Shown one piece after another: positions 23,209 to 38,649 of a stretch of DNA of 64,000 nt. A model generated the notes under the pieces. It searched no databases. It saw only the letters and a list, made by a program, of their open reading frames with translations, and was not told the DNA's origin. This DNA is from Mangrovimonas yunxiaonensis. Lineage in GTDB: Bacteria; Bacteroidota; Bacteroidia; Flavobacteriales; Flavobacteriaceae. How positions within the stretch are numbered: the first letter of the stretch is position 1; every line of letters starts with the position of its first letter. A program made the translations under genes and the position numbers. The stretch spans positions 434,001 to 498,000 of the forward strand of contig NZ_JPFK01000005.1 of assembly GCF_000733475.1 (NCBI RefSeq), given 5' to 3'.

Positions 23209-23212
23209 ATTG

Positions 23213-23280: not shown

Positions 23281-23305
23281 CAATACATTTATATAAAATG
23301 TATTG
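23281..23305. promoter_or_regulatory. perfect palindrome, candidate PadR operator
   Basis: CAATACATTT (23281-23290) and AAATGTATTG (23296-23305) form a perfect 10-base inverted repeat with a five-base spacer. It covers the -33 region of the padR promoter. PadR-family repressors typically bind ATACAT/ATGTAT palindromes of this kind, so autoregulation is the likely role. Confidence 0.7.
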
Positions 23306-23315
23306 AATAAAAATG

Positions 23316-23323
23316 TATATTTG
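23316..23323 (+). promoter_or_regulatory. -7 promoter box of the padR operon
   Basis: TATATTTG fits TAnnTTTG and ends four bases before the ATG at 23328; the palindrome 11 bases upstream overlaps the expected -33 position. Confidence 0.65.
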
Positions 23324-23327
23324 TCAT

Positions 23328-24091: not shown

Positions 24092-24101
24092 ATATTATCT
24101 T

Positions 24102-24281: not shown

Positions 24282-24328
24282 GCTGTTGCTTTCTAACGGC
24301 ACGGTAAAAGAGATTGAGTTTAAAAAAG

Positions 24329-24360
24329 AAAAGGATCGCTAAATAGCCATCCTTTTTTTA
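24329..24360. terminator. bidirectional terminator between the padR operon and sufD
   Basis: AGGAT-c-GCTA (from 24332) pairs with TAGC-c-ATCCT (to 24353), with one internal C-C mismatch. A T-run follows on each strand, so both the padR operon and sufD can end here. Confidence 0.78.
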
Positions 24361-24380
24361 TGTGTTTTGTGGGATAAAAC

Positions 24381-25694
24381 TTATAAGTCAAACCCAATAT
24401 TAACTCCTAGCTTATTGGCGATAAGTTTGTTAATGCGTGTTTTTATTTCTGGAATTTTAACACTCTCTAAAACATTATTGCTAAAAGCATACATTAACAG
24501 GGCTCTGGCTTCCTTTTTTGGGATTCCGCGAGAGCGCATATAAAACATGGCGCTTTCGTCTAGTTGGCCTATGGTACACCCGTGCGAGCACTTTACGTCA
24601 TCGGCAAAGATTTCTAATTGTGGCTTGGAGTTTATGGTGGCTTTATCACTTACCAAAATATTGTTGTTAGACTGGTAAGCATTAGTTTTTTGAGCTTCTT
24701 TTTCAACCACAACTTTACCGTTAAACACGCCCGTTGCGCTGTCGCCAAAAATACCTTTGTAGTCTTGATGACTTTCGCAATTAGGCTCGATATGATGCAC
24801 TAACGTATTGTGGTCTACATGCTGCTTGTCGCCAATAATCGTAATCCCTTTTAAGGTAGAATCCATGCGCTCGCCATTTTGATAAAAATTAAGGTTGTTA
24901 CGCGTTAATTTTCCGCCAAATGAAAAGGTATGAACCGAGGCGTGGCTCTCTTGCTTTTGCTTGATAAAGGTATTGTCTATTAAAGATGCGTTTTGGTTGT
25001 CGTTTTGTATTTTGTAATAATCGACAATAGCGCGTTTGTTGGCAAAAATCTCGGTTACCGAATTGGTTAACACAGGGTTGTCTGTTAAACTTTGGTGACG
25101 TTCGATAATCTGAACATGCGAATTTTCGTCAACCACAATTAAATTACGAGGCTGAAGCATTAAAGCGGCTTCGTTACCTGTTGCAAAGTGGATGATTTGA
25201 ATGGGTTTTTCTACCAATTTGTTTTTTGGAATATGAATGTAAGCCCCTTCGCTCGAAAACGCCGTATTAAGCGAGGACAAACTGTCCTGCGTGGCCGCCT
25301 TGTTAAAATAGTGTTCTACAATTAAGCGGTACTTAGTTTTTGATAATGCAGCCGACATTAGGCAAACATCAATCCCCTCGTGGGTGGTTTGCGATAAGTA
25401 GGAAGAGTATTTCCCATCGACAAAAATAATCTTGTACGAATCGATATCGTGAATTAAGTACTTTTTAATGTCGTTGTAATCGATAGCTGTTTCCTGTTTA
25501 GGGAATAGGCTATAGTTGTGTTTTAGTACGGGCTTTAAGGAGGTGTATTTCCAGGCCTCGTCCTTTTTAGAGGGAAATCCTTTTTGCTCAAAGGTTTTTA
25601 TGGCTTGGTTTTTTATACCATGAATGGGTGAGGATGCTTCTAAGTGGTCCTCGAAAGCCATAAATGATGAGACTAATTTATCTTTTAATTCCAT
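24381..25694 (-). CDS. sufD: Fe-S cluster assembly protein SufD
   Basis: SufD partners SufB and SufC in the cytosolic SufBC2D scaffold that builds Fe-S clusters. The 437 residues show the family pattern: SKKDEAWKYTSLKP (about 41-54), the beta-helix core, RNNLNFYQNGERMDSTLKG, KGIFGDSATGVFNGKVVV, and the conserved C-terminal block with CSHGCTIGQLDESAMFYMRS followed by RGIPKKEARALL. It is separated from sufC by a four-helix-bundle gene cassette of about 430 bases and ends at a bidirectional terminator, so sufS is not co-transcribed with it. Confidence 0.95.
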   Translation of the reverse strand: MELKDKLVSSFMAFEDHLEASSPIHGIKNQAIKTFEQKGFPSKKDEAWKYTSLKPVLKHNYSLFPKQETAIDYNDIKKYLIHDIDSYKIIFVDGKYSSYLSQTTHEGIDVCLMSAALSKTKYRLIVEHYFNKAATQDSLSSLNTAFSSEGAYIHIPKNKLVEKPIQIIHFATGNEAALMLQPRNLIVVDENSHVQIIERHQSLTDNPVLTNSVTEIFANKRAIVDYYKIQNDNQNASLIDNTFIKQKQESHASVHTFSFGGKLTRNNLNFYQNGERMDSTLKGITIIGDKQHVDHNTLVHHIEPNCESHQDYKGIFGDSATGVFNGKVVVEKEAQKTNAYQSNNNILVSDKATINSKPQLEIFADDVKCSHGCTIGQLDESAMFYMRSRGIPKKEARALLMYAFSNNVLESVKIPEIKTRINKLIANKLGVNIGFDL

Positions 25695-25730
25695 TGTGTA
25701 TTAGTCTTAAAGTTAAAAATCTTAAAGTTG

Positions 25731-26148
25731 AAAGTTAAAAAAACATGAGTGTTAAGACGTTTAACTTAAGTGAATTATTTGTTTAAATATGTTATAAAAC
25801 CACTTATGAGTTTTGAAATTTAATTGATTTCAGAACTTAATTGGCCGAATTCTTGTTGAGTTAGATAGTTTAAATCTAATGCTAAATACAATTGAGATCT
25901 AACTTCGCCTACCGATGCTTTTGCGCCAAATAAAAAGCGGATAAACTCTTTATTGGTGTTGCGTTCAAAACCTTCAGCAATATTTGACAATATTGAAATC
26001 GAAGCGCTTCTTATTTGTCTAATTAAATCGAAATCATTTACAAAGTTTTTATTAGTAATAGTATAAATACTTTTATTAAACAACCTGGCTTTCTGCCAAG
26101 CAATTATATCTTCAAAAGCATTTATTTTTTTCATTACTTTTTAACTTT
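25731..26148. repeat. inverted repeat flanking the four-helix-bundle gene
   Basis: AAAGTTAAAAA at 25731-25741 and its exact reverse complement TTTTTAACTTT at 26138-26148 bracket the gene; the right copy begins three bases before the gene's ATG. Outside them are more AACTTT-type motifs (TCTTAAAGTT at 25705-25714 and 25720-25729; ACTTTC near 26152). The arrangement looks like a small insertion cassette between sufC and sufD, but A+T-rich 11-base repeats can arise by chance. Confidence 0.4.
25775..26134 (-). pseudogene. four-helix-bundle (S23/IVP-like) gene with in-frame premature stop
   Basis: The open part (26134 to 25820) encodes 104 residues with the S23 four-helix-bundle signatures: FEDIIAWQKARLFNKSIY, LIRQIRSASISILSNIAEGF, FIRFLFGAKASVGEVRSQLY. 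It stops at TAA (25822-25820) after SSEIN, shorter than the usual 115-125 residues. Reading on in the same frame gives ISKLISGFITYLNK and a second stop at 25775; that is the expected C-terminal helix of this family. A single point mutation therefore explains the truncation. The truncated protein could still fold partly. The gene interrupts sufC and sufD and is bracketed by an inverted repeat. Function of stand-alone members is unknown. Confidence 0.8.
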
Positions 26149-26177
26149 ATGACTTTCGGCGTTCCAACTATAGACTA

Positions 26178-26930
26178 TTAAGCGTTAGCTTCTTCTTTTA
26201 TCCAGTCGTATCCTTTTTCCTCTAGTTCGTGGGCCAATTCCTTTGGTCCCGATTTTACAATTTTCCCTTGGTGCAAAACATGCACATAATCAGGTACAAT
26301 GTAATCTAGTAAACGCTGGTAGTGGGTAATTACAATTACGGCGTTATCCTTACTTTTTAGTTTATTAACCCCATTGGCAACAATACGCAGTGCATCGATG
26401 TCTAGCCCCGAGTCGGTTTCGTCAAGAATGGCCAATTTAGGTTCTAACATGGCCATTTGAAAAATTTCGTTACGTTTTTTCTCACCACCGGAAAAGCCTT
26501 CGTTTAACGAGCGTGATAAAAACTTACGGTCAATTTCTAAAAGTTCAGATTTCTCACGAATCATTTTCAGCATTTCGTTGGCAGGCATTTCTTCAAGGCC
26601 TTTGGCTTTTCGGGTTTCGTTTATGGCTGTTTTCATAAAGTTGGTTACCGAAACTCCAGGGATTTCAACTGGGTATTGGAACGATAGGAAAACCCCTTTA
26701 TGGGCGCGTTCTTCGGCGGCCAATTCGTTAATGTCCTCGCCTTCAAAAAAGATTTCGCCTTGTTCTACTTCGTACTCTTCTTTTCCTGCAATTACAGAGG
26801 CCAACGTGCTTTTTCCAGAGCCGTTAGGGCCCATTATAGCATGTACTTCGCCAGGGTTAACCTCAAGGTTAATGCCTCTTAAAATTCCTTTATCTTCAAC
26901 ACTTGCGTGTAGGTTTTTAATCTTTAACAT
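26178..26930 (-). CDS. sufC: SufC ATPase
   Basis: ABC-type ATPase of the SufBCD scaffold, cytosolic and without membrane domain. It has 250 residues with Walker [10 protein letters not shown] (34-42), Q-loop [12 protein letters not shown], signature [10 protein letters not shown] near 147-156, Walker [15 protein letters not shown] and switch histidine in [11 protein letters not shown]. Length and motifs are canonical. It follows the small lipoprotein gene by four bases and precedes the four-helix-bundle cassette, which separates it from sufD; sufD expression may depend on read-through. Confidence 0.97.
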
Positions 26931-26934
26931 AGTC

Positions 26935-27327
26935 TTATTCGCTTCCTAATTTTACAACATCGTTTTTGTTTGGGTCTGGTTTAGAGACTCCTATAATTTC
27001 TTTTATTTCAACACGAAACGGCCACCCTTCTTCGTTTTCGGGTTTTGGTGTGATAAGTCCTTTTATTTCAACAGGAACCATATCGGTGTCTTCTTTTTTG
27101 TATTTTCTCACCATATCGTCCAGCTCGTGCATTTTATGGTTTATAACAACGCCATAGACTTCTATCTCTGTTTGAAGTACGGCAGCATCGGCCAGGTAAA
27201 CAAATTCGCCTTTTAAAAGGGTGTATTCGCTGTTGGTGGTTTGCTGTTGGCTATCGGTTGTTTTTGTGTCGTTTTTACACGCGCTTAATAAACCAAAGAC
27301 TAGGAGTACCGTAACTAGTTTTTTCAT
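26935..27327 (-). CDS. NlpE-like OB-domain lipoprotein in the suf operon
   Basis: A 130-residue predicted lipoprotein: the signal ends LLSAC (Cys17) followed by KNDTKTTD. After a Ser/Thr/Gln linker comes a compact domain with [53 protein letters not shown] and [12 protein letters not shown]. The order (YLADAAV, a helix, a V-x-L-x-G strand, a closing V-x-x-I-x-G-V strand) resembles the C-terminal OB domain of NlpE. It lies inside the suf operon, 10 bases after sufB and 4 before sufC, so it is co-expressed with Fe-S assembly. Sensor or metal/redox roles are possible but unproven. Confidence 0.75.
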
Positions 27328-27337
27328 GGGTTTTATA

Positions 27338-28786
27338 TTATCCTACAGAACCTTCTAAGCTTATTTCTAGAAGTTTTTGTGCCTCAACGGCAAATTCCAT
27401 AGGGAGTTTATTTAATACGTCTTTGCTAAATCCGTTTACAATTAGGGCGATGGCCTTTTCGGTATCTATACCACGTTGGTTGCAGTAAAAAATTTGGTCT
27501 TCACCAATTTTACTGGTTGTGGCTTCGTGCTCTATTTGTGAGGTTTGGTTTTTGTTTTCGATGTAAGGGAATGTATGTGCCCCGCATTCGTTACCCATTA
27601 ACAAGCTGTCGCATTGCGAAAAATTACGGGCGTTTTCTGCTCTGGAATGTACTTGTACCAAGCCGCGGTAGCTGTTTTGTGATTTCCCTGCCGAGATGCC
27701 TTTAGAAATGATAGTCGATTTGGTGTTCTTGCCCAAATGAATCATTTTAGTACCCGTGTCGGCCTGTTGGTAGTTATTGGTTACGGCAATGGAGTAAAAC
27801 TCACCAACCGAATTGTCGCCTTTTAACACACAGCTAGGGTATTTCCAGGTTACGGCGCTTCCTGTTTCAACTTGCGTCCAAGAGATTTTGGCGTTTTTCT
27901 CGCAAAGTCCTCTTTTGGTTACAAAATTGAATACGCCTCCTTTGCCTTCGGCATTTCCGGGGTACCAGTTTTGAACGGTCGAGTATTTTATTTCGGCATT
28001 GTCTAAAGCAATAAGCTCTACTACGGCGGCGTGCAATTGGTTCTCGTCGCGCGTTGGTGCAGTACAGCCTTCTAGGTAACTTACATAGCTGCCCTCGTCG
28101 GCAATAACCAAAGTTCTTTCAAATTGCCCGGTGCCTGCCTGGTTAATACGGAAATAGGTTGATAGCTCCATAGGGCATCTTACGCCTTTAGGAATGTAGC
28201 AAAAACTACCGTCGCTAAAAACAGCGCTGTTTAAGGCGGCATAGAAATTGTCTTTTTGGGGTACGACAGAACCAATGTATTTTTTAACCAATTCGGGATG
28301 CTCTTGAATGGCTTCCGAAATGGAACAGAAAATAATGCCTTTTTCGGCAAGTGTTTTCTTAAAGGTGGTCGCTACCGAAACCGAGTCCATTACAATGTCT
28401 ACGGCCACTCCGGCAAGCTTTTTCTGCTCGTCTAGCGAAATGCCCAGTTTGTTAAAGGTGTCCAATAGTTCTGGATCGACTTCGTCTAGGCTGTTGTATT
28501 TTGGTTTTTTGTTTGGTGCCGAGTAGTATGAAATGGCTTGGAAATCGGGCTTTTTGTAGGTTACATTAGCCCACTCCGGCTCTTCCATGTCTTGCCAAAT
28601 ACGAAAGGCTTCCAAACGCCATTGGGTCATCCATTCGGGTTCTTCCTTTTTCTTCGAAATGGCACGTACTATATCTTCGTTAAGGCCAACAGGAAGGGTG
28701 TCCGATTCAATATCGGTGTAAAACCCGTATTCGTATTCCTTGGTCTTTAACTCTTCTCTTAAATCGTCTTCGGTATATTTGCTCAT
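27338..28786 (-). CDS. sufB: Fe-S cluster assembly protein SufB
   Basis: Core scaffold of the SUF system, 482 residues as usual. Typical segments are [76 protein letters not shown], the C-terminal [20 protein letters not shown] with conserved cysteines, and [16 protein letters not shown]. It accepts sulfur from SufE and assembles a cluster with SufC and SufD. It is 20 bases downstream of sufA. Confidence 0.97.
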
Positions 28787-28806
28787 TGGTTTTCTCGCTT
28801 CAAAAA

Positions 28807-29136
28807 TTATAGTGAAAATGATTCACCGCATCCACAGGTTCTATTGGCGTTGGGGTTGTTAAATACAAAGCCTGTTCCGTTTAGTCCTCCAGAGTATTCT
28901 AGGGTGGTGCCTATAAGGTATAGAAAACTCTTTTTGTCGACAATAATTTTTACGCCGTTGTCTTCAAAAACCTTATCGTCGTTCTGTTGGGCTTTGTCAA
29001 ACCTAAGGTCGTACGATAACCCAGAGCATCCGCCACTTTTTACACCTACCCGAATAAAGTCTGTTAATACATTATAACCTTCCTCGGTCATAAGCTCGGC
29101 AACTTTCTTCTTAGCTGTTTCTGATACTTTTATCAT
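28807..29136 (-). CDS. sufA: A-type Fe-S carrier (SufA/HesB/IscA family)
   Basis: A 109-residue A-type carrier that receives Fe-S clusters from SufBCD and delivers them to apoproteins. The three ligating cysteines are present: Cys37 in [12 protein letters not shown], and Cys101 and Cys103 in [10 protein letters not shown] at the C-terminus. First gene of the minus-strand suf operon, with a -7 box TATATTTG upstream (29174 to 29167). It lies about 100 bases after the end of the MbnH-like gene on the same strand with no terminator visible between them, so some read-through is possible. Confidence 0.95.
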
Positions 29137-29140
29137 TTCT

Positions 29141-29174
29141 TAAATAGATTATATCTAAATAGACTGCAAATATA
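29141..29174 (-). promoter_or_regulatory. suf operon promoter with repeats in the leader
   Basis: The minus-strand box TATATTTG (29174 to 29167) fits the -7 consensus. Between it and sufA lie two direct repeats TAAATAGA (29141-29148, 29156-29163), the second half-overlapping an inverted repeat TAGAT-tat-ATCTA (29145-29157). Their position just after the start site would suit a repressor such as an Fe-S or iron sensor, but the regulator is not identifiable here. Confidence 0.45.
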
Positions 29175-29239
29175 CAATATAAGTAGTGTTTTACCATACA
29201 ACCTAACATTATATTATTAAATAGGTTAATAGGGTTTTG

Positions 29240-30313
29240 TTATGGGTTTTGAAAGTCGGGATTATTAATGAAAGACGGGTCGGAAAGGGTTAGTAAAAAG
29301 GCCTTTAGGTCGGCTTTGTCTTGAGGAGAAAGTTGTACGCCGCCCTGGTTAACTTTTTTCATTAGGGGGTCTATGGTTGGCGAGTTTTGCAGACCTTCGC
29401 TGTAGTGGTTAATGACCTCGTCTAGGGTTGTAAATCGGCCGTCGTGCATGTATGGTGCCGTGTAGGCGAGATTTCGAAGGGAGGGCGATTTAAATTTGCC
29501 GTTGTCTGCCGGATCGCCTGTTACATCGCCTAGGCCATTGTCCAGAAACGTAGCGTCTAGCCCATTGTTATGGAAGGCATTGTCGGTCCAAAGTGGGTTG
29601 TTGGGATTGCCGTGGCAGTGAAAGCAATCGCCGCGGTCTTCATCCATAAATACGTTCAGCCCATTTTGCTCTTGTGGCGTTAAAGTAGCTTGCCCTAATA
29701 AATAGTTATCGAATTTTGAATTGGCCGAAATAAGGGTTCTTTCAAATTGAGCTATCGCTTTGGCTACAAGCTGTTTGGTGATGTCTTGTTGGCCAAACGC
29801 TGCTTTAAAAAGGGCTGGGTATTCGCTGTGATTACTTAGCCTGCTAACAACCTCGTTCCAGGTGTTGGCCATTTCGGTGGGATCCTTAACGGGCTGCATG
29901 GCCTGGTGTTCTAAGTGAAAAGACCGGCCATCCCAAAAGAAATTTTCTTCGTAGTTCCAGGCCAGATTAAATAGGGGCATGGAGTTTCTGCGGCCTAAAT
30001 CGCCATTAACCCCAGTGCTAAAGGTATTGTCGTCTGTAAAGGCTTTTTGAGGCTTGTGGCAGCTTGCGCAAGCTTGGGAGAAATCGACCGAGAGAATGGG
30101 GTCGAAAAACAGTTTTTTACCCAAAGCAACCCCTTCAACCGTTTGTGGGTTGTTAACGGGTAATACGGGAGGGATGATGTTGTCCTCGAAAATCTGAGGG
30201 ATTTCTAAGGGGAGTGGCGTGGGAGAATTTACCGGGGTATAATCGCCATCTGAACTGCTAGAACAGGTGCTAAGCAGCAAGTAGATTATAATATAAAATG
30301 CCCCGTTTTTCAT
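29240..30313 (-). CDS. di-haem cytochrome c peroxidase family lipoprotein, MauG/MbnH-like
   Basis: A 357-residue envelope lipoprotein (signal ending LLLSTC, Cys17) with two c-type haem sites: C82-A-S-C-H86 and C230-F-H-C-H234. An FWDGR motif with Trp127 lies between them. The position that supplies the low-spin haem ligand falls in VINHYSEG and is Tyr304; Tyr there is typical of MauG/MbnH rather than the Met of classical peroxidases. MauG-type enzymes form bis-Fe(IV) states and oxidise protein residues. The adjacent upstream gene is an MbnP homologue, the known substrate partner of MbnH, in which a Trp is converted to kynurenine for copper binding. It is the last gene of a five-gene operon. 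Confidence 0.88.
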   Translation of the reverse strand: MKNGAFYIIIYLLLSTCSSSSDGDYTPVNSPTPLPLEIPQIFEDNIIPPVLPVNNPQTVEGVALGKKLFFDPILSVDFSQACASCHKPQKAFTDDNTFSTGVNGDLGRRNSMPLFNLAWNYEENFFWDGRSFHLEHQAMQPVKDPTEMANTWNEVVSRLSNHSEYPALFKAAFGQQDITKQLVAKAIAQFERTLISANSKFDNYLLGQATLTPQEQNGLNVFMDEDRGDCFHCHGNPNNPLWTDNAFHNNGLDATFLDNGLGDVTGDPADNGKFKSPSLRNLAYTAPYMHDGRFTTLDEVINHYSEGLQNSPTIDPLMKKVNQGGVQLSPQDKADLKAFLLTLSDPSFINNPDFQNP

Positions 30314-30320
30314 GCTTTTT

Positions 30321-31094
30321 TTATTGTTGTGAAATGGAGCCTAAGGTAAATGCCGAAGCAATGTTTTGTTGCATGAGCTTTTGGGCATCGTAGTTAGGCA
30401 TTAAAGAGGTGTTGTAAACGTTTAAGTCCCATAGATTGGGGTTTTTAAAGAGCTCGGCAACATTAAATTTAATTTCGATGGTTGTGCCCTCGGCAATGGT
30501 AATGCTTTCGGTAAAGTTGAAGACTGTATGGTTTTGTTCGAACTCTCCCTCGCTAACCATAGCGGTGCCATTGTGGTAGTTAAATGGTAGTGGTGCGGTT
30601 GTGTTAACGTTATATTGGCCGTCTAATTGAAGAAAATGGTACCCACCACCTAGCATTTCTGGCCAGTTCCAAGAGGCCGTATTTAAATCGGTGTATGCGC
30701 CGTCAATATTGTTGGCTTCGTCAAAACCAAAAACAAATCTCAGTGTGTACTCTCCAGGGGTTACTGATCCAGAAGGGGTAAAGGTCATGGTTTCGGCGTT
30801 AGAAAGCTCTACTAAATTGTACCCTTGAAAGCTAATGGGGTTGCCGTTGTTGTCCAACAATTGAAATCCGGAGAGCAAATACCTTAGCCTTGTTATGGTA
30901 AGCACTTCGCCATTGGCGTTGGTGTAAGAGGTGTTTTCTATATCGGCATTGGTAATGGTGGTGTCGTCCCAATGTTGAGAAAACACAAAAGTAGGGGTGA
31001 CATTTTGGTTGTTGCTGCCTAATTTGTCGTCGTTGTTTTCGCTGCAGGAAAACGAGAGCATGCAGCATAAAGCGATTAAGAAAATATGTTTCAT
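30321..31094 (-). CDS. MbnP family lipoprotein, candidate copper-binding protein
   Basis: A 257-residue lipoprotein (signal ending LSFSC, Cys17) with the MbnP pattern: LTITRLRYLLSGFQLLD (about 65-81), GEYTLRFVFGFDE, NTASWNWPEMLGGGYHFLQLDG (about 139-160) and IEIKFNVAELFKNP. MbnP proteins bind copper through a kynurenine made from tryptophan by the di-haem partner MbnH; candidate tryptophans are W42, W142, W144 and W222. The MbnH-like gene follows after seven bases. Copper or another metal as ligand is inferred from the family. The protein is probably displayed on the outer membrane. Confidence 0.85.
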   Translation of the reverse strand: MKHIFLIALCCMLSFSCSENNDDKLGSNNQNVTPTFVFSQHWDDTTITNADIENTSYTNANGEVLTITRLRYLLSGFQLLDNNGNPISFQGYNLVELSNAETMTFTPSGSVTPGEYTLRFVFGFDEANNIDGAYTDLNTASWNWPEMLGGGYHFLQLDGQYNVNTTAPLPFNYHNGTAMVSEGEFEQNHTVFNFTESITIAEGTTIEIKFNVAELFKNPNLWDLNVYNTSLMPNYDAQKLMQQNIASAFTLGSISQQ

Positions 31095-31101
31095 CGTTTT
31101 T

Positions 31102-32457
31102 TTATTTTAAGGTAACCATTAAAAGGTCTGTAAAGCCTTTGTTTTCTAGAACATCAAAATCGTCACTATTGGATTCTCCTACAGCAACGATAGAACCATC
31201 GTTTAATTGTGCAATATCGTAAAAGAAATCTATTTGCGAACCACCAATGGTTTTTTGCCACGCTATGGCGCCTTGGCTGTTTATTTTAATTACCCAGGCA
31301 TCGTTTTGCCCATAGTTGTTTGTTAGGTGGCCATTAAGGCTTCTTGAGCTTCCTGCAATAATAAAGTGATTTTCTTGTGTTTTTTTTATCGATCGGCCTA
31401 CATCAAAACCGCTTCCGCCGTAGGATTTCTCCCAGAGCAATTCGCCTTCGGGCGTTATTTTAATTAGCCATAGGTCGGCTAGGCCGTAATTGTTAGAAAC
31501 ATTTACATCGCTGCTTCTTGTGTCTCCAACAATCATGTAGTTTCCGTCGTTTGATGGTGTGATGCTTCTCGCTTCATCAATTTCAGTGCCACCAAAGTTT
31601 TTCTCCCAAACAATGTCGCCAGAGGCAGATGTTCTAACAACCCAAAAATCGTAGGAGCCAATGTTGTTTGAAATGTCGACATCTTCACTATCGGAAGAGC
31701 CAACCATAATAAAGCCATGGTCTTCGGTTTGGACTACACCGTATGGAGTGTCTGTAAAAAAGCCGCCATAATACTGGCTCCATTCCTTATCTCCAGAGGC
31801 GTTGAGTTTAATGGCCCAATAATCACCGCCGGCATGTTTTGCATTTGTGCGCGAGTTGCCTTCTCCTCCAGAGGCAGTTACATCCAATACACCAGTAATT
31901 AAAAATCCTTGGTCTGCAGTTGTAATAATAGCGTAGCCTGTGTCAATCCCGGCATAGCCAAAAGATTTTTGCCATTGTAGGGTGCCATTTGCCGAGAGCT
32001 TGGCCAGCCAATAGTCTTTTAGTCCGTTGTTGTTGCTTACATCTTGGTCGTTGCTATCGCTAAACCCTAAAACAGCTAGCCCGCCATCTTGGGTTTGTAC
32101 TATGGCGTGCCCTCTGTCGTTTTCAGAGCCGCCGTAGGTTTTGCTCCATTGCAGGGTTTTATCGCTATTGAATTTTAAGACCCAAAAATCAAAACTTTCG
32201 TTGGTTTTATCAGTAATGTCACCATCCATGCTTTGGGTGTGTCCTAAAACAGCAAACCCGCCATCTTGTGTTGCTATAACGGCATTGGCACTTTCGTTTA
32301 GGGTGCCGCCAAAGGTTTGTACTGCATCTACAATGCCCTTGGGGCCGTTATTTTGAGGTGCTGTATTTGCCGTGTCGTCTTTAGAACAGCCCGATAGCAG
32401 CAAGGTGCTGCAAGTTATAAGAAACCATATGTTTAACGAAGGTGTTCTTTTTAACAT
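31102..32457 (-). CDS. predicted seven-bladed beta-propeller lipoprotein
   Basis: A 451-residue lipoprotein (signal ending LLLSGC followed by SKDD). The mature part is made of seven repeats of about 55-60 residues, each containing a block such as WSKTYGGSENDRGHAIVQT followed by an xGGLAVLGFSxS-type turn and a D-W/L-x-x-K strand. The count of seven fits one closed beta-propeller. Repeats of this GGS-x-x-D type occur in secreted proteins of Bacteroidota and myxobacteria; the ligand is unknown. It lies 2 and 7 bases from its neighbours in the MbnP/MbnH operon, so it is co-expressed. Confidence 0.78.
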   Translation of the reverse strand: MLKRTPSLNIWFLITCSTLLLSGCSKDDTANTAPQNNGPKGIVDAVQTFGGTLNESANAVIATQDGGFAVLGHTQSMDGDITDKTNESFDFWVLKFNSDKTLQWSKTYGGSENDRGHAIVQTQDGGLAVLGFSDSNDQDVSNNNGLKDYWLAKLSANGTLQWQKSFGYAGIDTGYAIITTADQGFLITGVLDVTASGGEGNSRTNAKHAGGDYWAIKLNASGDKEWSQYYGGFFTDTPYGVVQTEDHGFIMVGSSDSEDVDISNNIGSYDFWVVRTSASGDIVWEKNFGGTEIDEARSITPSNDGNYMIVGDTRSSDVNVSNNYGLADLWLIKITPEGELLWEKSYGGSGFDVGRSIKKTQENHFIIAGSSRSLNGHLTNNYGQNDAWVIKINSQGAIAWQKTIGGSQIDFFYDIAQLNDGSIVAVGESNSDDFDVLENKGFTDLLMVTLK

Positions 32458-32459
32458 GC

Positions 32460-33809
32460 TTAGTCTTGTTTTCTTATCACAAATAACCCTCTGTCTATAT
32501 CGCTAACAACAATATTGCCGCTAGAGAAATACGGGTACACGCTCCAGGCTCCTTGAAAGTTGGCCGAGTTATTTTCTGGGTAGGTATCGAAAAAACCTAT
32601 TTCGGTCATGCTTGCAGCTTCTAGGCTGGAAACGTCTATAAATCTTACTCCGGCACTGTAATTGGCTTGGAAAAAGGTGTCGTTCTTTACATAGCCATTG
32701 TGGTCTATGGCTGTCGTTGGGCCAAGGTATTCCATATGAAATTCTGGATTATCTAAGTCTGAAAAATCAAAAACCAACGACCGTGTGTTGTTGCCGTATT
32801 GCAGCTCGTCCAGCTCATCGCCCAAAATAAAATAGGTCATGTTGGTGGTAAACCAACCTTGGTGTACATATCCAATGTTGCTGTAGCCTGCTATGGTAGA
32901 AATTACAACGGGGTTACTTTTATTGCTTACATCGGCAATGACAATTTCATCTTCATTGCTTCCTATTAAAATTTCTTTGCCGTGATGCTCGGTATCTGGG
33001 CCGCTGTATATAACCACTTGGGCATCGTGGGCATAATCGTGTAGCCCGCCTTCGCTAACTGGGTTAAGTGGATCTTGAATGTTTATAAAAAGCGGGCCGC
33101 CTGCATAGGTGCCGCTTCTGGAGGTTCCTACAATGTAGGCATAGCCAGAGGCTTCGTTAATAACAATGTTGTGTGCGCTTCCAAATTCGGTAAAGTGGGT
33201 GTCGGCTGTAAAGTCTTGAGGTTGCGAGATGTTTCGAAGTCTGGTAAGATCGAAAACTTGCATGCCGTAATTAGTGGCTTCGCTAACAATAAATGCGTGG
33301 TTGTTATACACCTTTATATCGCGCCAAATGTTGCCTTGGTCTCCAGGATTAGCGCTGGCTAACTTTCCAACCAAACGGGGTTGTGTGGGGTTGGAGATGT
33401 CTACAAAAGCAGTGCCGTGGGTCGAGCCAACCAAAGCGTACTCGATATTGGTTATAGGGTCTGTCCACCCCCAGCAGTCATTACCTCTGGCATTTGCTTC
33501 GGCAAGCGTTTCTAGTGGCATTTGCCCCATAAGGTCGTAGCCATTGCAGGGGTAAATGCCGGCCATGCCATTTACGCATGGGGCAAGTGGTTGCAAGCCG
33601 TTGGTTTCGCAAGCATCGCCAATACCATTGTTGTTGGTGTCGGTTTGATTGGCATTGGCCGTGTTTGGGCAGTTGTCTTCACTGTCCGGTATGCCATCAT
33701 TATCCGTGTCTACAATGGTGTTTGTTGGGCCATCGTCGTTGCTGCAGGATGTTAAGGTTGCGGTAGTGATAACAAGCAAAAGCGTTATGTAAGCAAAAGC
33801 ATATTTCAT
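32460..33809 (-). CDS. choice-of-anchor B family lipoprotein with calcium-type repeats
   Basis: A 449-residue lipoprotein (signal ending ATLTSC followed by SNDD). Residues about 34-68 are a thrombospondin type-3-like calcium-binding stretch (DTDNDGIPDSEDNCP, then NNNGIGDACE). The rest is an LVIVD-repeat beta-propeller of the choice-of-anchor B family, with PCNGYDLMGQMPLE, GWTDPITNIEYALVGSTHGT, FTEFGSAHNIVINEASGYAY and TAIDHNGYV. It is about 60% similar by eye to the next upstream protein but is lipid-anchored rather than T9SS-sorted. Its ATG overlaps the previous stop by one base. Confidence 0.85.
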   Translation of the reverse strand: MKYAFAYITLLLVITTATLTSCSNDDGPTNTIVDTDNDGIPDSEDNCPNTANANQTDTNNNGIGDACETNGLQPLAPCVNGMAGIYPCNGYDLMGQMPLETLAEANARGNDCWGWTDPITNIEYALVGSTHGTAFVDISNPTQPRLVGKLASANPGDQGNIWRDIKVYNNHAFIVSEATNYGMQVFDLTRLRNISQPQDFTADTHFTEFGSAHNIVINEASGYAYIVGTSRSGTYAGGPLFINIQDPLNPVSEGGLHDYAHDAQVVIYSGPDTEHHGKEILIGSNEDEIVIADVSNKSNPVVISTIAGYSNIGYVHQGWFTTNMTYFILGDELDELQYGNNTRSLVFDFSDLDNPEFHMEYLGPTTAIDHNGYVKNDTFFQANYSAGVRFIDVSSLEAASMTEIGFFDTYPENNSANFQGAWSVYPYFSSGNIVVSDIDRGLFVIRKQD

Positions 33810-35254
33810 TATTTCACAATTAATTTTTTAGTGAAGGTGTTGTTTATGTTTACCAAGTACAAGCCTTTGGCAAATTGTTTAACAGGTAAAACGTATTCTT
33901 TTTGATTGATATTGTTTACGCTAAAGATACGCTTGCCTAGGGTGTTGTATACCTCTACCGATGTAATGGCTTGTTTGTTGGAGGTGATTTTGGTTTGATA
34001 GGTTGCTGGGTTTGGAGCAAAAGCAACACTTTTGATAGGCTGAACATCTTCAGTGCTTAGCGTATTGCTCTTAATAACAAACAGGCCTCTTTCAATATCG
34101 CTAATAATGATGTTTCCGCTAGGGAGGTAAGGGTAAACGCTCCATGCGCCGTTAAAGGCTGTGCTGTTGCTTTCGGGGTGGGTGTCGAAATGCCCGATTT
34201 CTACCATGGCATCTGTTGGTGCGGCAATATTGCTAATGTCTAACACGCGTAAACCGGCTCTGTAGTTAGCTAGGAAAAACAGGTTGCCTAAAACATAGCC
34301 GTTGTGGTCGATTGCTGTTGTGGGGCCATCGTAGGTTGAAGAGAGCACGGGATTGTCTAAATCGTATAGGTCAAAAACAAGGGTTCTGGTGTTAAAGCCG
34401 TAGCTTAGCTCATCGGTTTCATCGCCTAAAATAAAATACCTATGGTCGTCTGTAAACCAACCTTGGTGGGTGTAGCCCAGTTGTGAATAGGAAATTTCGG
34501 CTAGTTTTATAACATTGTTTTTGTCGGTTACATCCAGAATCAAGACTTCAGATTCGTTGCTGCCAATATAAATTTCTTTACCTGCATGCTCGGTGTCTGG
34601 GCCGTTGTAAGTTACCACTTGCGCATCGTGCGAATAGCCTTCGTCTGGATATCCACCGGCATTAACGGGATTGGTAGGGGTGGAGATGTCAATAAATGCT
34701 GGTCCGCCAGAAAAGGGGCCGTTACGACTTGTTCCCACTATGTAGGCATAGCCTGTGCTTTCGTTGATTACAATGTTATGGGCGCTGCCAAATTCGGTAT
34801 AATGGGCATCGGCGGTAAAGGTTATTGGTAGTGCGCCAACGTTTCTTAATCGGGTAAGATCAAAAACCTGCATGCCGTGATTGCCAACATTGTCGGCAAC
34901 AATAAACGCGTGGTTGTTGTACACTTTTACGTCGCGCCAGTAACTGGTGCTAGTGGCTGTGTCTAATCGGCCTAAAAAAATAGGGTTAACGGGGTCGGTA
35001 ACATCAACAAAAGCAGTGCTGTTGGTCATGGCCACAATGGCGTATTCCTTTCCGTCAAGAGGATCTACCCAGCCCCAAATATCACTGCCTTCGGGGTTTC
35101 CTAAGCCGTTTGCTAAAACAGAAACGGGCACGTTAGAAAGCAGGTCGTAACCATGGCACGGGTATTCGCCGGCAAAACCATTTTCGCAAGGTGTTTGTGA
35201 GAAGGCAAGGTTAAAAATGAAAAATAAGAGCAGTAAGGGGTAAAAAGATTTCAA
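33809..35254 (-). CDS. choice-of-anchor B family protein with T9SS sorting domain
   Basis: A 481-residue secreted protein. A signal peptide (FYPLLLLFFIFNLAFS, then QTP) precedes an LVIVD-type propeller (PCHGYDLLSNVPVSV, GWVDPLDGKEYAIVAMTNST, YTEFGSAHNIVINESTGYAY) and a C-terminal type A sorting domain (about 410-481: FAPNPATYQTKITSN, VEVYNTLGKRIFSV, FAKGLYLVNINN, KKLIVK) that directs export by the type IX system. The only suitable start is TTG at 35254, since no in-frame ATG precedes the signal peptide. First gene of the five-gene operon, with a -7 box at 35281-35288. Confidence 0.87.
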   Translation of the reverse strand: MKSFYPLLLLFFIFNLAFSQTPCENGFAGEYPCHGYDLLSNVPVSVLANGLGNPEGSDIWGWVDPLDGKEYAIVAMTNSTAFVDVTDPVNPIFLGRLDTATSTSYWRDVKVYNNHAFIVADNVGNHGMQVFDLTRLRNVGALPITFTADAHYTEFGSAHNIVINESTGYAYIVGTSRNGPFSGGPAFIDISTPTNPVNAGGYPDEGYSHDAQVVTYNGPDTEHAGKEIYIGSNESEVLILDVTDKNNVIKLAEISYSQLGYTHQGWFTDDHRYFILGDETDELSYGFNTRTLVFDLYDLDNPVLSSTYDGPTTAIDHNGYVLGNLFFLANYRAGLRVLDISNIAAPTDAMVEIGHFDTHPESNSTAFNGAWSVYPYLPSGNIIISDIERGLFVIKSNTLSTEDVQPIKSVAFAPNPATYQTKITSNKQAITSVEVYNTLGKRIFSVNNINQKEYVLPVKQFAKGLYLVNINNTFTKKLIVK

Positions 35255-35280
35255 TGTGTTAAAAATTTAAAAAATGCAAA

Positions 35281-35288
35281 CAAAACTA
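35281..35288 (-). promoter_or_regulatory. -7 box of the MbnP/MbnH-propeller operon
   Basis: On the minus strand the box reads TAGTTTTG, 26 bases before the TTG start. No -33 TTTG is visible at the expected distance. Confidence 0.5.
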
Positions 35289-35361
35289 AATTAAAAATTA
35301 CTCTTTTTGCTGTTAAAGTTAAAGATTTTAGGCTTTTTCTTATTAGTTTAATGAAACCGCG

Positions 35362-35369
35362 TATTTTTG
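35362..35369 (+). promoter_or_regulatory. -7 box of thiL
   Basis: TATTTTTG ends four bases before the ATG at 35374, implying a leaderless transcript. It is divergent from the operon promoter at 35281-35288. Confidence 0.65.
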
Positions 35370-35373
35370 CATC

Positions 35374-36423
35374 ATGATTGAAGATAAAAACCAAGGGCGC
35401 ACATCGCTCTCAGAATTGGGCGAGTTTGGCTTAATAACGCATTTAACCAAAGCGTTTAAAATAAAGCAACCATCAACAGTTAAAGGGATTGGCGATGATG
35501 CTGCTGTCATGTCGTTTAAAAATAAGCAGGTTGTGCTAACAACCGATATGTTAATCGAGCAAGTGCATTTCGATTTAAGCTATATGCCGTTAAAGCATTT
35601 AGGTTATAAGGCCGTTATGGTTAATTTGTCTGATGTGTATGCTATGAATGCCGAAGCAACACAAATTACAGTATCTGTTGCTGTTTCCAATAGGTTTTCT
35701 TTAGAGGCTTTAGAAGCACTTTACTCTGGCATTGAAACCGCAGCTAGAATTTATGGAGTTGATGTTGTTGGCGGCGATACCACCTCGTCTGTTTCGGGCT
35801 TGGTCATTTCTATTACGGCTGTTGGCGAAGTTGATGCTGATCGTGTTGTTTACAGAAGCGGTGCTAAGCCTAACGATTTGCTGGTAGTAAGTGGTGATTT
35901 GGGCGGTGCCTATATGGGCTTGCAGGTTTTAGAAAGGGAAAAAGCTGTTTTTAAAGTGAATCCGCAAAGCCAGCCTGACCTCGATGCTTATACCTATATT
36001 ATTGAGCGTCAATTAAAACCCGAAGCACGAAAAGATGTGGTGACGTTATTACGGGATTTGGATGTTAAGCCAACGTCTATGATTGATATAAGCGATGGAC
36101 TGTCCTCTGAGGTTATCCATTTGTGTAAGCAGAGCGATGTGGGGGTAGAGTTGTATGAAAATAAAATTCCTTTGGATCCCCAGGTTATCGCAACTTGCGA
36201 AGAGTTTGATATAGACAGTACTACTGTGGCCTTAAATGGCGGCGAAGACTATGAGTTGTTGCTAACGGTAGATCAAAATGACTATCCTAAAATAAAGGGT
36301 AATCCTAATTTAACGGTTATTGGTTTTGTTAAGGATAAAAGCCAGGGCATGCATTTAATTACCAGAGGCGAGCAAGCCATTCCGTTAATAGCTAAAGGCT
36401 GGAATGCATTAAAAGAGGATTAG
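35374..36423 (+). CDS. thiL: thiamine-monophosphate kinase
   Basis: ThiL phosphorylates thiamine monophosphate to the active cofactor thiamine diphosphate in the cytosol. The 349 residues show SELGEFGLITHL, GIGDDAAVM (ATP/Mg binding), TTDMLIEQVHFDLSYM, KAVMVNLSDVYAMNAE, GGDTTSS, SGDLGGAYMGL, MIDISDGLSSE and NGGEDYELL, the complete PurM-type kinase signature. No other thiamine genes are nearby. Its stop overlaps the end of a small convergent gene by three to four bases. Confidence 0.96.
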   Translation: MIEDKNQGRTSLSELGEFGLITHLTKAFKIKQPSTVKGIGDDAAVMSFKNKQVVLTTDMLIEQVHFDLSYMPLKHLGYKAVMVNLSDVYAMNAEATQITVSVAVSNRFSLEALEALYSGIETAARIYGVDVVGGDTTSSVSGLVISITAVGEVDADRVVYRSGAKPNDLLVVSGDLGGAYMGLQVLEREKAVFKVNPQSQPDLDAYTYIIERQLKPEARKDVVTLLRDLDVKPTSMIDISDGLSSEVIHLCKQSDVGVELYENKIPLDPQVIATCEEFDIDSTTVALNGGEDYELLLTVDQNDYPKIKGNPNLTVIGFVKDKSQGMHLITRGEQAIPLIAKGWNALKED

Positions 36424-36647
36424 TGGTTAATCGCGTTAAGCTTGCGCTTTTTAGAGCGTATTTTATGCAGGCGCTCCAACGCTAAATTAATTTCTTGTCG
36501 TTTTGAGGTTAAGGGAATGATTTGCCCTTTGTCGCTAGTTGTAAAATAAGTTTTGCAGTGTATGCATTGGTACTCCATTACAGCATTGGTAACGTGTTTT
36601 TTTATTACAAACGTATGTTTGAATAATTTGCAATAGAGGGTCTTCAA
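36420..36647 (-). CDS. small zinc-ribbon-like protein, copy 1
   Basis: A 75-residue basic protein beginning at TTG (36647), with LYCKLFKHTFVIKKHV, YQCIHCKTYFTT and a C-terminal helix EINLALERLHKIRSKKRKL. CxxC at about 28-31 plus the N-terminal C and H residues could bind zinc; the pattern resembles DUF1660-like prophage proteins but this is not certain. It is a diverged paralogue of the gene at 36763-37020 (shared V-T-x-x-x-x-E-Y-x-C-x-x-C, TT, LT and EIN positions). It converges with thiL and overlaps its end. Function unknown. Confidence 0.6.
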   Translation of the reverse strand: MKTLYCKLFKHTFVIKKHVTNAVMEYQCIHCKTYFTTSDKGQIIPLTSKRQEINLALERLHKIRSKKRKLNAINH

Positions 36648-36762
36648 GGCTATTATTTTTTTTAAGGGTTAAAGAACGCCTAACATAAACAAAATAAGCC
36701 AGTTTTAAAAAGAAAATGTGTTAAGATATTGTAATGTGACCAAGGTTTGTTTTGGTCTAAAA

Positions 36763-37020
36763 TCAATACATCGGGGCCGATAGCTTTTTGGCTTTGTGCC
36801 TAAGAGTTCGGCGGATGTATATTTCTTCTAGAAGGGAATTAATTTCCTTGAATTTTGGTGTTAATTCGGTTAAATTACCGTTGCTGTTGGTTGTTAGTTG
36901 CTTTTTACAGCATTTGCAGGTGTACTCCTTTACATGTGATGTAACTTCTTTGCTAACAACATATTTGTGCCCTATGATGTCGCACCAAAACTTTAGTGGG
37001 GTTGCGTTAGTCGTTTTCAT
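36763..37020 (-). CDS. small zinc-ribbon-like protein, copy 2
   Basis: An 85-residue basic protein with FWCDIIGHKYVVSKEVTSH, YTCKCCKKQLTT and LTPKFKEINSLLEEIYI, matching copy 1 along its length. Cys13, His18 and the CKCC cluster at about 35-38 are the candidate zinc ligands. A short hairpin (GACCAA/TTGGTC, 36738-36757) just after the stop lacks a T-run. The two copies are separated by 115 bases. No neighbouring system explains them. Confidence 0.62.
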   Translation of the reverse strand: MKTTNATPLKFWCDIIGHKYVVSKEVTSHVKEYTCKCCKKQLTTNSNGNLTELTPKFKEINSLLEEIYIRRTLRHKAKKLSAPMY

Positions 37021-37081
37021 AAGTTTAGGATTTTTGGGACTTAAACTTAAGAAACAAAATCAATTAAACGGATAAAACGTA

Positions 37082-37861
37082 TTATTTTTCGATGAAACGC
37101 TTTACAATGTAGGATAAACCTTTCATATTTTCAATATGACTCATGTGGCCATCGGCTAATTCTACCAATTCAACATTGGTGCCAACAGTTTGTGCCCGAA
37201 CATCGTTAATATCTAAAATAGGGTCTTTTCTTCCGGCGACAATCATTTTTTTATACGGGGTAAAATGAAGTAAGGCCTCTCTGTCGGGTCGGGCTTTCAT
37301 GCCTTCTAAAGCGGCAATAATACCTTGTATGGGCGTTTTAAGCGCCTCTTTTTTTACATGTTCAATGGCTTTTGCTAAGGGCGCTCTGTTTTCTTCGGCA
37401 AATAAATTAGCGATAGACATGCTTATAAAAGCCTTATGGTTTTGCTTTACAGCTTTAATGGCTCGTGTTCTGTTTTGTTTTCGTTCGTTAGAGTCTGCTT
37501 TGGATGTGGAGTTTAGTAGCACGAGACCTTTTAGGTTGTCTGGGAAGAATTCGGCATAGGCCAAAGCAACATACCCGCCCATAGAGTGCCCTATAAACGT
37601 ATATTTTCGAAGTTTTAAATGAACCAAGACAGCCCTAACGGCATCGGCCATGTCTTCCATGCTGTGTATGTACCCTAAGCACTCGGTTTTGCCGTGTCCC
37701 AACAGGTCTATAGCGATAACTCGGTGGGTTTTAATAAGCTCGGGAGAGAGGGTTTTCCACATGTGGAGGTTTTCCAAAAACCCGTGTAATAGGACAATGG
37801 CAGGGCCCTTGCCGCTGTCGGTATATGCGATGTTGATGTTTTTATAAACCAGTGTTTTCAT
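37082..37861 (-). CDS. alpha/beta hydrolase
   Basis: A 259-residue soluble hydrolase of the HIT-type alpha/beta fold. The oxyanion motif LLHGFLENLHMW is near residue 27, the nucleophile elbow GHSMGG near 90 (Ser), followed by the acidic GRKDPI and histidine GHMSHIEN near the C-terminus, so the triad is complete. The ATG at 37861 is preferred to a TTG nine bases upstream. Substrate unknown; similar proteins are annotated as esterases or lactonases. It runs 24 bases behind the ACT-like gene on the same strand. Confidence 0.87.
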   Translation of the reverse strand: MKTLVYKNINIAYTDSGKGPAIVLLHGFLENLHMWKTLSPELIKTHRVIAIDLLGHGKTECLGYIHSMEDMADAVRAVLVHLKLRKYTFIGHSMGGYVALAYAEFFPDNLKGLVLLNSTSKADSNERKQNRTRAIKAVKQNHKAFISMSIANLFAEENRAPLAKAIEHVKKEALKTPIQGIIAALEGMKARPDREALLHFTPYKKMIVAGRKDPILDINDVRAQTVGTNVELVELADGHMSHIENMKGLSYIVKRFIEK

Positions 37862-37885
37862 GTCTTGCAAAACAAAATATGGTGG

Positions 37886-38542
37886 TTATGCTTTTAGTCG
37901 TTTTATTACAGAAAAGGCTTTGTCGATCAATTCGTCTTCTACTAAAATGGTAAACTCGTTTGTGGTCGATACCACCTCGTAAAGGGCAATGCCTTCCCAG
38001 GCGAGCCTTTTAAATATTTGATAATACAGTCCCGTAACTTTCGAGTTGTTTTCGGGAAGGTTTAAACTTATGGCAGAAAGTTGTTCCTTTTGCGCCAATA
38101 GGGTTTCGTTTTTAAAACAATTTAGAATGTGTGCTTTCTGGGCATTCGATATAATGATGTTGCTTTCTAGTATACCTCGAGTAAAGGCGTAAAACACATT
38201 GGGGTTGGGTTGAATGTGTTCCAGTAATTTGCTGTGGCTTTTTATTAAGCTTTGCGAGTTTAAAAAGGTAAAATCAATTAGGTTGGAGCGTACGGTTATA
38301 TCGCCCAAGTTTTTAATAACCTTTTTCAGGCGGGGAGAACCACCCAAATCTGGCGGAGGACTGTAGCGTCTTAAGGCCATCATAATAGCCCCTGTTTTTA
38401 CTGGTTTTCTTAGCATGTCGCTAACAGGAGTGGTTAGTTCCTCTGCCAATGCCGAGTAATTTATAATGTTTCGGGCTAAGGCTTCTTCTAAAAAAGGTTG
38501 CGCAACCAAAAGTTCTTCAACGCAGGCAGCAATGGTTTTCAT
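37886..38542 (-). CDS. ACT-like domain protein divergent from aspartate kinase
   Basis: A 218-residue soluble protein: an N-terminal helical part (about 1-75: EELLVAQPFLEEALARNIIN, a winged-helix-like MLRKPVKTGAIMMALRRY), a middle strand-rich part (LGDITVRSNLIDFTF) and a C-terminal ACT-like pattern (AISLNLPENNSKVTGLYYQI, IALYEVVSTTNEFTILVED). The ACT-like region and its divergent position next to aspartate kinase suggest amino-acid-responsive regulation. I do not know a characterised member. Confidence 0.7.
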   Translation of the reverse strand: MKTIAACVEELLVAQPFLEEALARNIINYSALAEELTTPVSDMLRKPVKTGAIMMALRRYSPPPDLGGSPRLKKVIKNLGDITVRSNLIDFTFLNSQSLIKSHSKLLEHIQPNPNVFYAFTRGILESNIIISNAQKAHILNCFKNETLLAQKEQLSAISLNLPENNSKVTGLYYQIFKRLAWEGIALYEVVSTTNEFTILVEDELIDKAFSVIKRLKA

Positions 38543-38567
38543 CTTGTTAATTATTTAACACAGTGTG

Positions 38568-38625
38568 CAAATTTAGTGCAATTTTTTAAATTTTCATGGT
38601 TAAAATAGGAGTCGTCTTAGTTTTG
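38568..38625. promoter_or_regulatory. divergent promoters of the ACT-like gene and aspartate kinase
   Basis: A minus-strand box TAAATTTG (38575 to 38568) and a plus-strand box TAGTTTTG (38618-38625) face away from each other. The plus box lies downstream of the ATG at 38596, which decides in favour of the aspartate kinase start at 38650. Confidence 0.6.
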
Positions 38626-38649
38626 CCTGCAATTAAAATAAAAGTGCTA

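Follow-up and report, generated by a model that had tools for sequence, protein, structure and literature searches.

What does the MbnP/MbnH protein pair, for which we know of no established client outside the methanotrophs, do when it is encoded among surface propeller proteins? The question is raised by a locus of Mangrovimonas yunxiaonensis, which lies in a 64,000-nucleotide stretch of contig NZ_JPFK01000005.1 (positions 434,001 to 498,000; hereafter the window, whose numbering is used throughout). The initial annotation of this sequence described five tightly packed genes at positions 29240-35254, and all five open reading frames (ORFs) are found there on the minus strand, separated by -1, 2, 7, and 7 bases. 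In the order in which they are read, they encode two choice-of-anchor B propellers, CAB1 (33809..35254) and CAB2 (32460..33809), with respective scores of 546.5 and 526.5 bits against TIGR04312 (cut-off, 100 bits); a propeller lipoprotein, termed SBBP (31102..32457), in which seven repeats were counted; a lipoprotein of the MbnP family (30321..31094; 100.8 bits against PF20243, the Pfam MbnP model, with a cut-off of 27); and an MbnH-like di-heme lipoprotein (29240..30313; 202 bits against CCP_MauG). CAB1 carries a sorting domain of the type IX secretion system (T9SS), Por_Secre_tail, and CAB2 carries TSP_3 repeats and a lipobox-like cysteine, which SBBP also possesses. These assignments bear out the annotation, as does the absence of a methanobactin gene: PF05114, the MbnB family, had no match at E values up to 0.001 in the genome of the window, which is 99% complete.

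CAB, SBBP, MbnP, and MbnH form a conserved unit in the Flavobacteriaceae. Among 149 genomes of this family, MbnP occurs in 71 (79 matches) and CAB, above its cut-off, in 76. Forty-eight of the 79 MbnP matches are situated within 10 kb of a CAB gene, in all 48 cases on the same strand, and the gap between the two is mostly near-constant and holds SBBP. This proximity is far more than expected by chance (of the 121 CAB rows listed, 110 entered the pairing; those left out were the 11 weakest, two of which exceed the cut-off). The order CAB-SBBP-MbnP-MbnH is the same in 47 of 47 linked loci, comprising 46 fetched from the family sample and the window itself; the 48th linked match is split between contigs. 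In a further 80 loci from named isolates, including members of Bizionia, Olleya, Formosa, Lacinutrix, Aequorivita, and Tenacibaculum, SBBP is the next gene upstream of MbnP in every case (80/80), CAB precedes SBBP in all 78 loci in which contig ends left it testable (not so in two), and MbnH is the next gene in 80/80. The named loci were kept as the 80 top-ranking ones from 442 relatives, the search patterns included LGGGYH, and the species overlap with those of the family sample; these loci are neither independent nor unbiased for the GGGYH and WNW motifs of MbnP described below, and the family sample gives the fairer count. The number of tandem CAB copies per locus ranges from one to five, and CAB-SBBP also occurs without the pair, such that the five-gene unit of the annotation is really one of four gene families.

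The association has taxonomic limits. In a sample of 247 genomes drawn from the phylum, MbnP occurs in 67 and CAB in at least 77, and inspection by eye placed CAB next to MbnP in at least 3 of the 67 MbnP genomes among the matches listed, with the position of CAB unlisted for at least 6 of them. Because these side-by-side cases all belong to the family of the window, the CAB-MbnP link looks lineage-specific, a trait of the Flavobacteriaceae. The annotation had named the absence of propellers from most loci with the pair as the observation that would tell against an assembly. That is not the situation within the family, where CAB is missing beside 31 of the 79 MbnP matches (one of them owing to a contig break), but it appears to be the situation across the phylum, given the few adjoining cases listed there. 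Of the 30 stand-alone MbnP matches listed in the family sample, 19 were retrieved as long stretches, and 15 of these were usable, since BLAST labels found no MbnP in L123, L127, L129, and L131. MbnH lies directly downstream in 14 of these 15 loci, and none has an adjacent gene labeled as CAB, SBBP, or suf. In most of the stand-alone pair loci L113-L125, a gene of about 314-348 amino acids overlaps the end of mbnH; two of its products had no Pfam match, nor did three proteins encoded beside stand-alone MbnP/MbnH pairs.

The presence of the pair is mirrored in the sequence of SBBP. Pair-less CAB-SBBP arrangements were recovered as 23 SBBP loci among 34 examined, with CAB upstream in 23/23. All 69 aligned SBBPs, with and without the pair, contain Cys24 and His208. 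Positions 171, 173, and 175, however, read H-x-H-x-Y in 23 of 23 SBBPs without the pair and differ in those with it; in the window, residues 171-175 (31933..31947, minus strand) are IDTGY, in the place of the HDHxY of relatives that lack the pair. Within a larger set, both histidines are present in 24/24 rows without the pair and in 0/125 with it, and in a fresh set of 40 further loci, all from genomes with a previously unexamined SBBP, His-x-His is present in 34/34 without and 0/6 with the pair, for an agreement of 40/40. Thirty-six of the fresh loci were picked for having no MbnP match or one elsewhere in the genome, two of which (L282 and L298) proved to carry the pair, and the remainder (L299-L302) were picked in the expectation of the stand-alone pair type, which four of the six pair-bearing loci do carry. 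Four genomes (G425, G464, G420, and G589) combine a His-x-His SBBP with a distant MbnP, indicating that what matters is the same locus and not the same genome.

A tree of 111 SBBPs, built with the motif columns left out, shows a single change in the presence of the pair (support, 98) and a single change in the motif, which points to one event. The motif is kept on one side of this split (58/58) and is free to vary on the other. We read this distribution as that of a putative metal site, His-x-His, which would have been released on the arrival of the pair; the direction of this change is likewise a proposal. SBBP residues Asp312, Arg314, and Ala327 are also mostly different in proteins without the pair; residues 312-327 correspond to window positions 31477-31524, and Arg314 is mostly replaced by Phe where the pair is lacking. 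A contact between Arg314 and MbnP or MbnH is possible.

A second line of evidence comes from the pair itself. In eight loci, the slot between SBBP and the suf genes is filled by an MbnP/MbnH pair of the stand-alone type. The seven usable MbnHs of these slot pairs constitute one clade (support, 99/95) that groups with stand-alone MbnHs, far from the branch of the window (L132, marked as stand-alone on this tree, is really a broken linked locus). By this phylogeny, two lineages of the pair occupy the same SBBP-suf place, by separate insertion or by replacement, and we regard this as the strongest indication of a functional partnership between pair and propellers. Among the loci with the other pair type, L300 has no labeled MbnH, and L302 has an extra ORF intervening.

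The MbnH-like protein has the two heme motifs and the tyrosine that the annotation had ascribed to it, namely, CASCH at residue 82 (30056..30070), CFHCH at residue 230 (29612-29626), and Tyr304 (29402..29404), all on the minus strand. Tyr304, which on the basis of alignment would hold the axial place of MauG and MbnH, is conserved in 116/116 MbnHs encoded beside GGGYH-type MbnPs (identical proteins were counted once in this set, in the MbnP sets of 136 and 117 rows, and in the lipobox counts given below). The best match in the PDB is 6e1c, a "Di-heme enzyme" (E = 1e-55) that we take to be MbnH. Scores fall below the cut-offs of TIGR04039 (271 versus 362.85 bits), for which 0 of the 149 family genomes have a match above the cut-off, and of TIGR03791 (194 bits).

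The membership of MbnP in its family, as annotated, is also upheld by structure: the AlphaFold model m9f52c57049ef (pLDDT, 92) matches 7l6g with a Z-score of 16.8 over 213 residues (root mean square deviation, 3.3), the next protein having a Z-score of 4.9. Manesis and colleagues reportedly located, in 2021, the kynurenine of the characterized MbnP at the first Trp of a WxW motif, and alignment makes Trp142, in the WNW of residues 142-144 (30663..30671, minus strand), the predicted kynurenine site here. Two histidines could accompany it. His174 (30573..30575, minus strand) occurs in 136/136 MbnPs of both types and aligns with a His of 7l6g; these 136 rows exclude lengths outside 200-320 amino acids, i.e., L132 (at a contig end) and L152 (apparently fused). 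His153, within GGGYH (30636..30650, minus strand), is peculiar to one type, as the motif is present in 43/47 linked and 0/15 stand-alone MbnPs of the family sample, which were found with Pfam and are unbiased for the motif. The other type is marked by M-x-W-x-W, found in 19/19 of its members (the 15 stand-alone proteins plus 4 from the slot), against 0/117 GGGYH rows; the corresponding excerpt of 7l6g reads GMAWNW, and we presume from this alignment that the Met two residues before the Trp is a metal ligand.

Within the family sample, the 43 linked MbnPs of the GGGYH type all have His174, Trp222, and Met232; the first Trp is present in 38 of them and replaced by Phe in 5. Over all 117 distinct GGGYH-type proteins, the first Trp is present in 108 and Phe in 9, and Trp222 is present in 117/117, although it is unconserved in the other type. 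When mapped on the MbnH tree, a partner with Phe142 occurs in 8/116 rows and requires five changes, at least three of which are forced by the starred branches of a quick tree. TIGR04052, a model with a four-Cys motif, was not among the NCBIfam matches of MbnP at E values up to 1, although its presence in that library is unconfirmed.

The lipoproteins of the unit bear signals consistent with the cell surface. Two or more acidic residues soon after the lipobox-like Cys are present in 108/113 MbnPs, 96/122 SBBPs, and 75/96 MbnHs, the Cys itself having been found by a crude pattern in 113 of 119, 122 of 145, and 96 of 124 rows, respectively. Acidic residues in this position are the surface-export type of signal for lipoproteins in this phylum, according to PMC5080379.

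The two propellers that the annotation assigned to choice-of-anchor B belong to a family that, to our knowledge, has no known function, but their conservation resembles that of a metal-binding protein. Four histidines of CAB2, His213 (33171..33173) and His261, His316, and His370 (33027-33029, 32862-32864, and 32700-32702; minus strand, all codons checked), are each conserved in 215/216 CABs from the fetched loci of the family, and Arg163-Asp164, Asp262, and the GDExDE motif (GDELDE at residues 330-335 of CAB2; 32805..32822, minus strand) are almost as constant. Of 18 CABs from outside the family, all have the four His, Asp262, and Glu332, and 12 have Glu335; they represent 13 of the 15 CAB loci fetched, since ORF labeling identified no CAB in L213 or L222 and returned nothing for L231 or L232. 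In the CAB2 model (m89dcf6fa2f2e; pLDDT, 87), the four His are spread one per blade, each at the beginning of a strand or immediately ahead of it, which would place all four at the mouth of the channel. CAB is thus probably a metalloprotein, either a metalloenzyme or a metal carrier. Only one of its positions tracks the presence of the MbnP/MbnH pair.

Foldseek ranks 5hrm first for the CAB model (E = 8.4e-12). This is the Sphingobium TCM1 phosphotriesterase, whose seven-bladed propeller holds a binuclear metal centre; the alignment with 5hrm_B covers 330 of its residues at 3.2 Å. Because other propellers are close behind (E = 2.4e-11; Z-scores of 31.0 versus 29.9), this match suggests the kind of site and not the reaction. 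At the sequence level, CAB and 5hrm share short matches (E = 0.31), and the alignment is too weak for comparison of their metal ligands; a full-length sequence match was tried and failed. Likewise dropped was a link to SBP56/methanethiol oxidase, presumably a copper propeller with a mauG neighbor, for which there was no match among the best 50 rows in each of two fold tables. Pfam recognizes LVIVD repeats in CAB. A second context for the family is seen in L093, L094, L095, and L096, where CABs of 1030-1062 amino acids follow three proteins of about 270-313 amino acids, two of which yielded no Pfam match.

The cluster is flanked downstream by suf genes and upstream by a divergent thiL, both missing from the initial annotation. 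From gene order, the suf genes (24381..29136, minus strand) specify a SufA/IscA-like protein, SufB, a lipoprotein, SufC, and SufD; SufB, SufC, and SufD are names that we assume from sequence and order, profile scans having covered the SufA-like protein and the lipoprotein. We treat these genes as neighbors and not as part of the unit. By BLAST label, a suf gene is first or second after MbnH in 47/47 loci of the family sample, and a same-strand suf gene lies within eight genes in 70 of the 79 testable named loci, another locus being cut by a contig end. Of the nine without one, L197, L201, and L203 stop soon at a contig end, and L159, L161, L162, L178, L185, and L189 keep the quartet with other genes downstream and no suf in the stretch covered. 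Pair-less CAB-SBBP loci also have suf within the next four genes (21/23). The thiL gene is upstream in 46/47 family-sample and 61/80 named loci, many of the remaining 19 being at contig ends.

A promoter-like motif, TATATTTG (29167..29174, minus strand), precedes sufA and conforms to TAnnTTTG, which is typical of promoters in this phylum. The consensus is present before sufA in 104/119 stretches (shuffles, 14.1) and before the first CAB in 60/116 (shuffles, 18.8). Since both are preceded by this motif, suf and CAB-MbnH are probably separate transcription units, and a direct tie of the unit to Fe-S assembly is therefore weakened. Words resembling TCTATTTA recur at positions 29137-29239, before sufA, and the most frequent 8-mers in relatives include CTATTTAG and TATTTAGA; these words are a possible site for a regulator of suf.

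Between sufB and sufC is a 130-amino-acid lipoprotein gene (26935-27327) with a marginal match to NlpE_C (22.7 versus a cut-off of 22). Relatives of it are present in 44/47 loci with the pair and 1/20 without, and also in the pair-less fresh loci L266, L269, and L273. An ORF of 280-345 amino acids occupies the same interval in 7/20 loci without the pair and 3/47 with it; two such ORFs (L080:1213-2085 and L059:13210-14073) belong to the metallo-beta-lactamase fold family. A 104-amino-acid ORF between sufC and sufD (25820-26134), with an ORF in that place in few other linked loci, has letters that we take to resemble the four-helix-bundle protein of 23S rRNA intervening sequences. An Rfam scan of positions 23000-39000 returned nothing at the gathering threshold, no tRNA was found in the window, and MbnP had no match in a plasmid collection.

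Our working account of the locus, to which we give somewhat less than even odds, is that it encodes a surface module for a metal, probably copper, in which MbnP/MbnH took over the metal site of SBBP and serves CAB. CAB and SBBP would form the core of this metal-handling module. CAB would be a surface propeller whose centre of four His plus Asp and Glu probably makes it a metal carrier or a metalloenzyme, and its partner would be SBBP, with a His-x-His site of its own in part of the family and acting as a scaffold in the lineage of the window. MbnH, as a di-heme oxidase, would convert Trp142 of MbnP to kynurenine, after which MbnP would hold the metal, most likely Cu(I), through His174 and probably His153. 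MbnP/MbnH would then perform the task of the SBBP His-x-His, supplying or holding metal for CAB. The gene set and its conservation, the either/or pattern, the altered residues of MbnP, the conserved centre of CAB, and the lipoprotein and T9SS signals are observed; the direction of change, kynurenine, copper, transfer to CAB, and catalysis by CAB are inferences. A stricter version is doubtful: that SBBP lost a channel-mouth His-x-His on recruiting MbnP/MbnH (two lineages in the same slot), that the kynurenine copper site of the main lineage was rebuilt on two histidines and is kynurenine-free in some species, and that the client, CAB, represents an unrecognized surface metalloenzyme family across the Bacteroidota.

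Several observations weigh against this account. The Met two residues before the Trp is missing in GGGYH-type MbnPs, being Ala in the protein of the window, and the second Trp of WxW is Val in 34 of the 43 linked GGGYH-type proteins and kept in 9. Kynurenine would not always be needed, because Trp142 is Phe in 9/117 proteins with at least three forced changes. The invariance of His153 is partly definitional, as the GGGYH set was picked by that motif. The either/or pattern amounts to one split on a tree and could be a coincidence on one branch, and further SBBP sites split in the same manner, with Arg314 in 46/46, Asp312 in 43/46, Ala327 in 44/46, and Leu446 in 42/46 proteins with the pair. Finally, the account has no explanation for the proximity of suf. 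The annotation had called the locus an undescribed surface assembly for metal handling or protein modification. It is real and recurrent, with lipoprotein and T9SS signals, and no account of a propeller and MbnP/MbnH assembly was found in the titles and abstract starts searched, subscription papers lying mostly outside this coverage, but most linked MbnPs lack the complete ligand set of the characterized protein. A 2021 paper on MbnP is said to contain a neighborhood analysis that may have touched on the assembly.

The losses of Trp142 leave room for another substrate. MbnH could act on Trp222 of MbnP, or on a tryptophan of SBBP or CAB, and generate a surface redox cofactor in place of a copper site. 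MbnH is retained beside the nine proteins with Phe142 (that of L204 being cut by a contig end), Trp222 is invariant only in the GGGYH type, and SBBP has several invariant tryptophans. We nevertheless consider this unlikely: most GGGYH-type MbnPs (108/117) retain Trp142, the tryptophans of SBBP and CAB are equally conserved where MbnH is absent, and the same slot is also filled by pairs whose MbnP is of the other type, which has M-x-W-x-W and lacks Trp222. A somewhat less probable proposal addresses the neighborhood, casting the module as a companion of suf that captures copper at the surface, protects or balances Fe-S assembly, and is induced by copper damage to clusters. The persistence of suf on the same strand with the pair (47/47 and 70/79 loci) and without it (21/23) fits such a role, as does the NlpE_C-like lipoprotein, with its bias toward loci with the pair. 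But suf is preceded by a conserved promoter-like motif of its own, the quartet persists in at least six named loci without a suf gene in the stretch covered, and the lipoprotein barely exceeds the NlpE_C cut-off, tracks much the same split, and is present in three pair-less loci.

Two further readings detach the pair from the propellers. CAB might be a metal-dependent surface hydrolase of the phosphoester type, like the TCM1 enzyme, with an unrelated copper role for MbnP/MbnH and an operon that is merely shared. The top rank of 5hrm, the 330 aligned residues, and the short sequence matches favor this hydrolase, but the near-equal scores of other propellers and the E value of 0.31 for sequence do not, and it leaves the either/or pattern unexplained; we judge it to be as improbable as the suf proposal. 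More improbable still is that the gene order was simply inherited, with no shared function and with propellers that are adhesins or scaffolds. Although the link was seen in one family only among the matches listed and one split accounts for the presence of the pair, a purely inherited order is at odds with the second MbnP/MbnH lineage in the same slot, with the His/Asp/Glu centre of CAB, and with retention of the quartet where both suf and thiL are missing from view, as in L161.

The value of the locus lies in giving a widespread pair fixed partners with testable residues, among them those of an apparently rebuilt metal site in MbnP. Natural variants with Phe142 would be expected not to form kynurenine, the partner propeller offers a His-x-His that is confined to loci lacking the pair, and CAB is a propeller family of wide distribution whose centre resembles that of an enzyme. 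That MbnP/MbnH pairs are conserved far beyond methanobactin producers, where their relevance is unclear, is stated in "Genome mining for methanobactins" (2013; PMC3621798). The pair of Methylosinus trichosporium OB3b (7l6g and, presumably, 6e1c) and that of the window share the MbnP fold, adjacent genes, a di-heme enzyme with Tyr in the axial place, and an MbnP with a WxW motif and one conserved His. Unlike the OB3b protein, the MbnP of the window lacks the Met before the Trp and has the extra His of GGGYH; there is no MbnB-family gene in its genome, the pair is tied to surface propellers, and its MbnH scores below the TIGR04039 cut-off. Stand-alone pairs of the family belong to the same two protein families but have M-x-W-x-W in 15/15, GGGYH in 0/15, and no CAB, SBBP, or suf next door.

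Comparisons with other systems are partial. MauG is a di-heme, Tyr-ligated enzyme that oxidizes Trp of its partner protein, methylamine dehydrogenase; the MbnH of the window resembles it in its two hemes and axial-place Tyr, with a TIGR03791 score below the cut-off, but has another partner, and no quinone enzyme was seen. CAB is like the Sphingobium TCM1 phosphotriesterase in its seven-bladed propeller and putative metal centre, a likeness of fold that comes with a low sequence match, and its repeats are like those of LVIVD surface proteins. The remaining counterparts are CorA/CorB of Methylomicrobium album and MopE/SACCP of Methylococcus capsulatus, for which we know of no propeller partners. 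Each comprises a surface copper protein with a Trp-derived kynurenine and an adjoining di-heme peroxidase-like gene, and two His and water bind the copper, near which the kynurenine lies (PMC3912023). Two His plus Trp142 of the MbnP in the window would resemble this arrangement, and GGGYH-type MbnPs may therefore have reached a site of the CorA/MopE kind.

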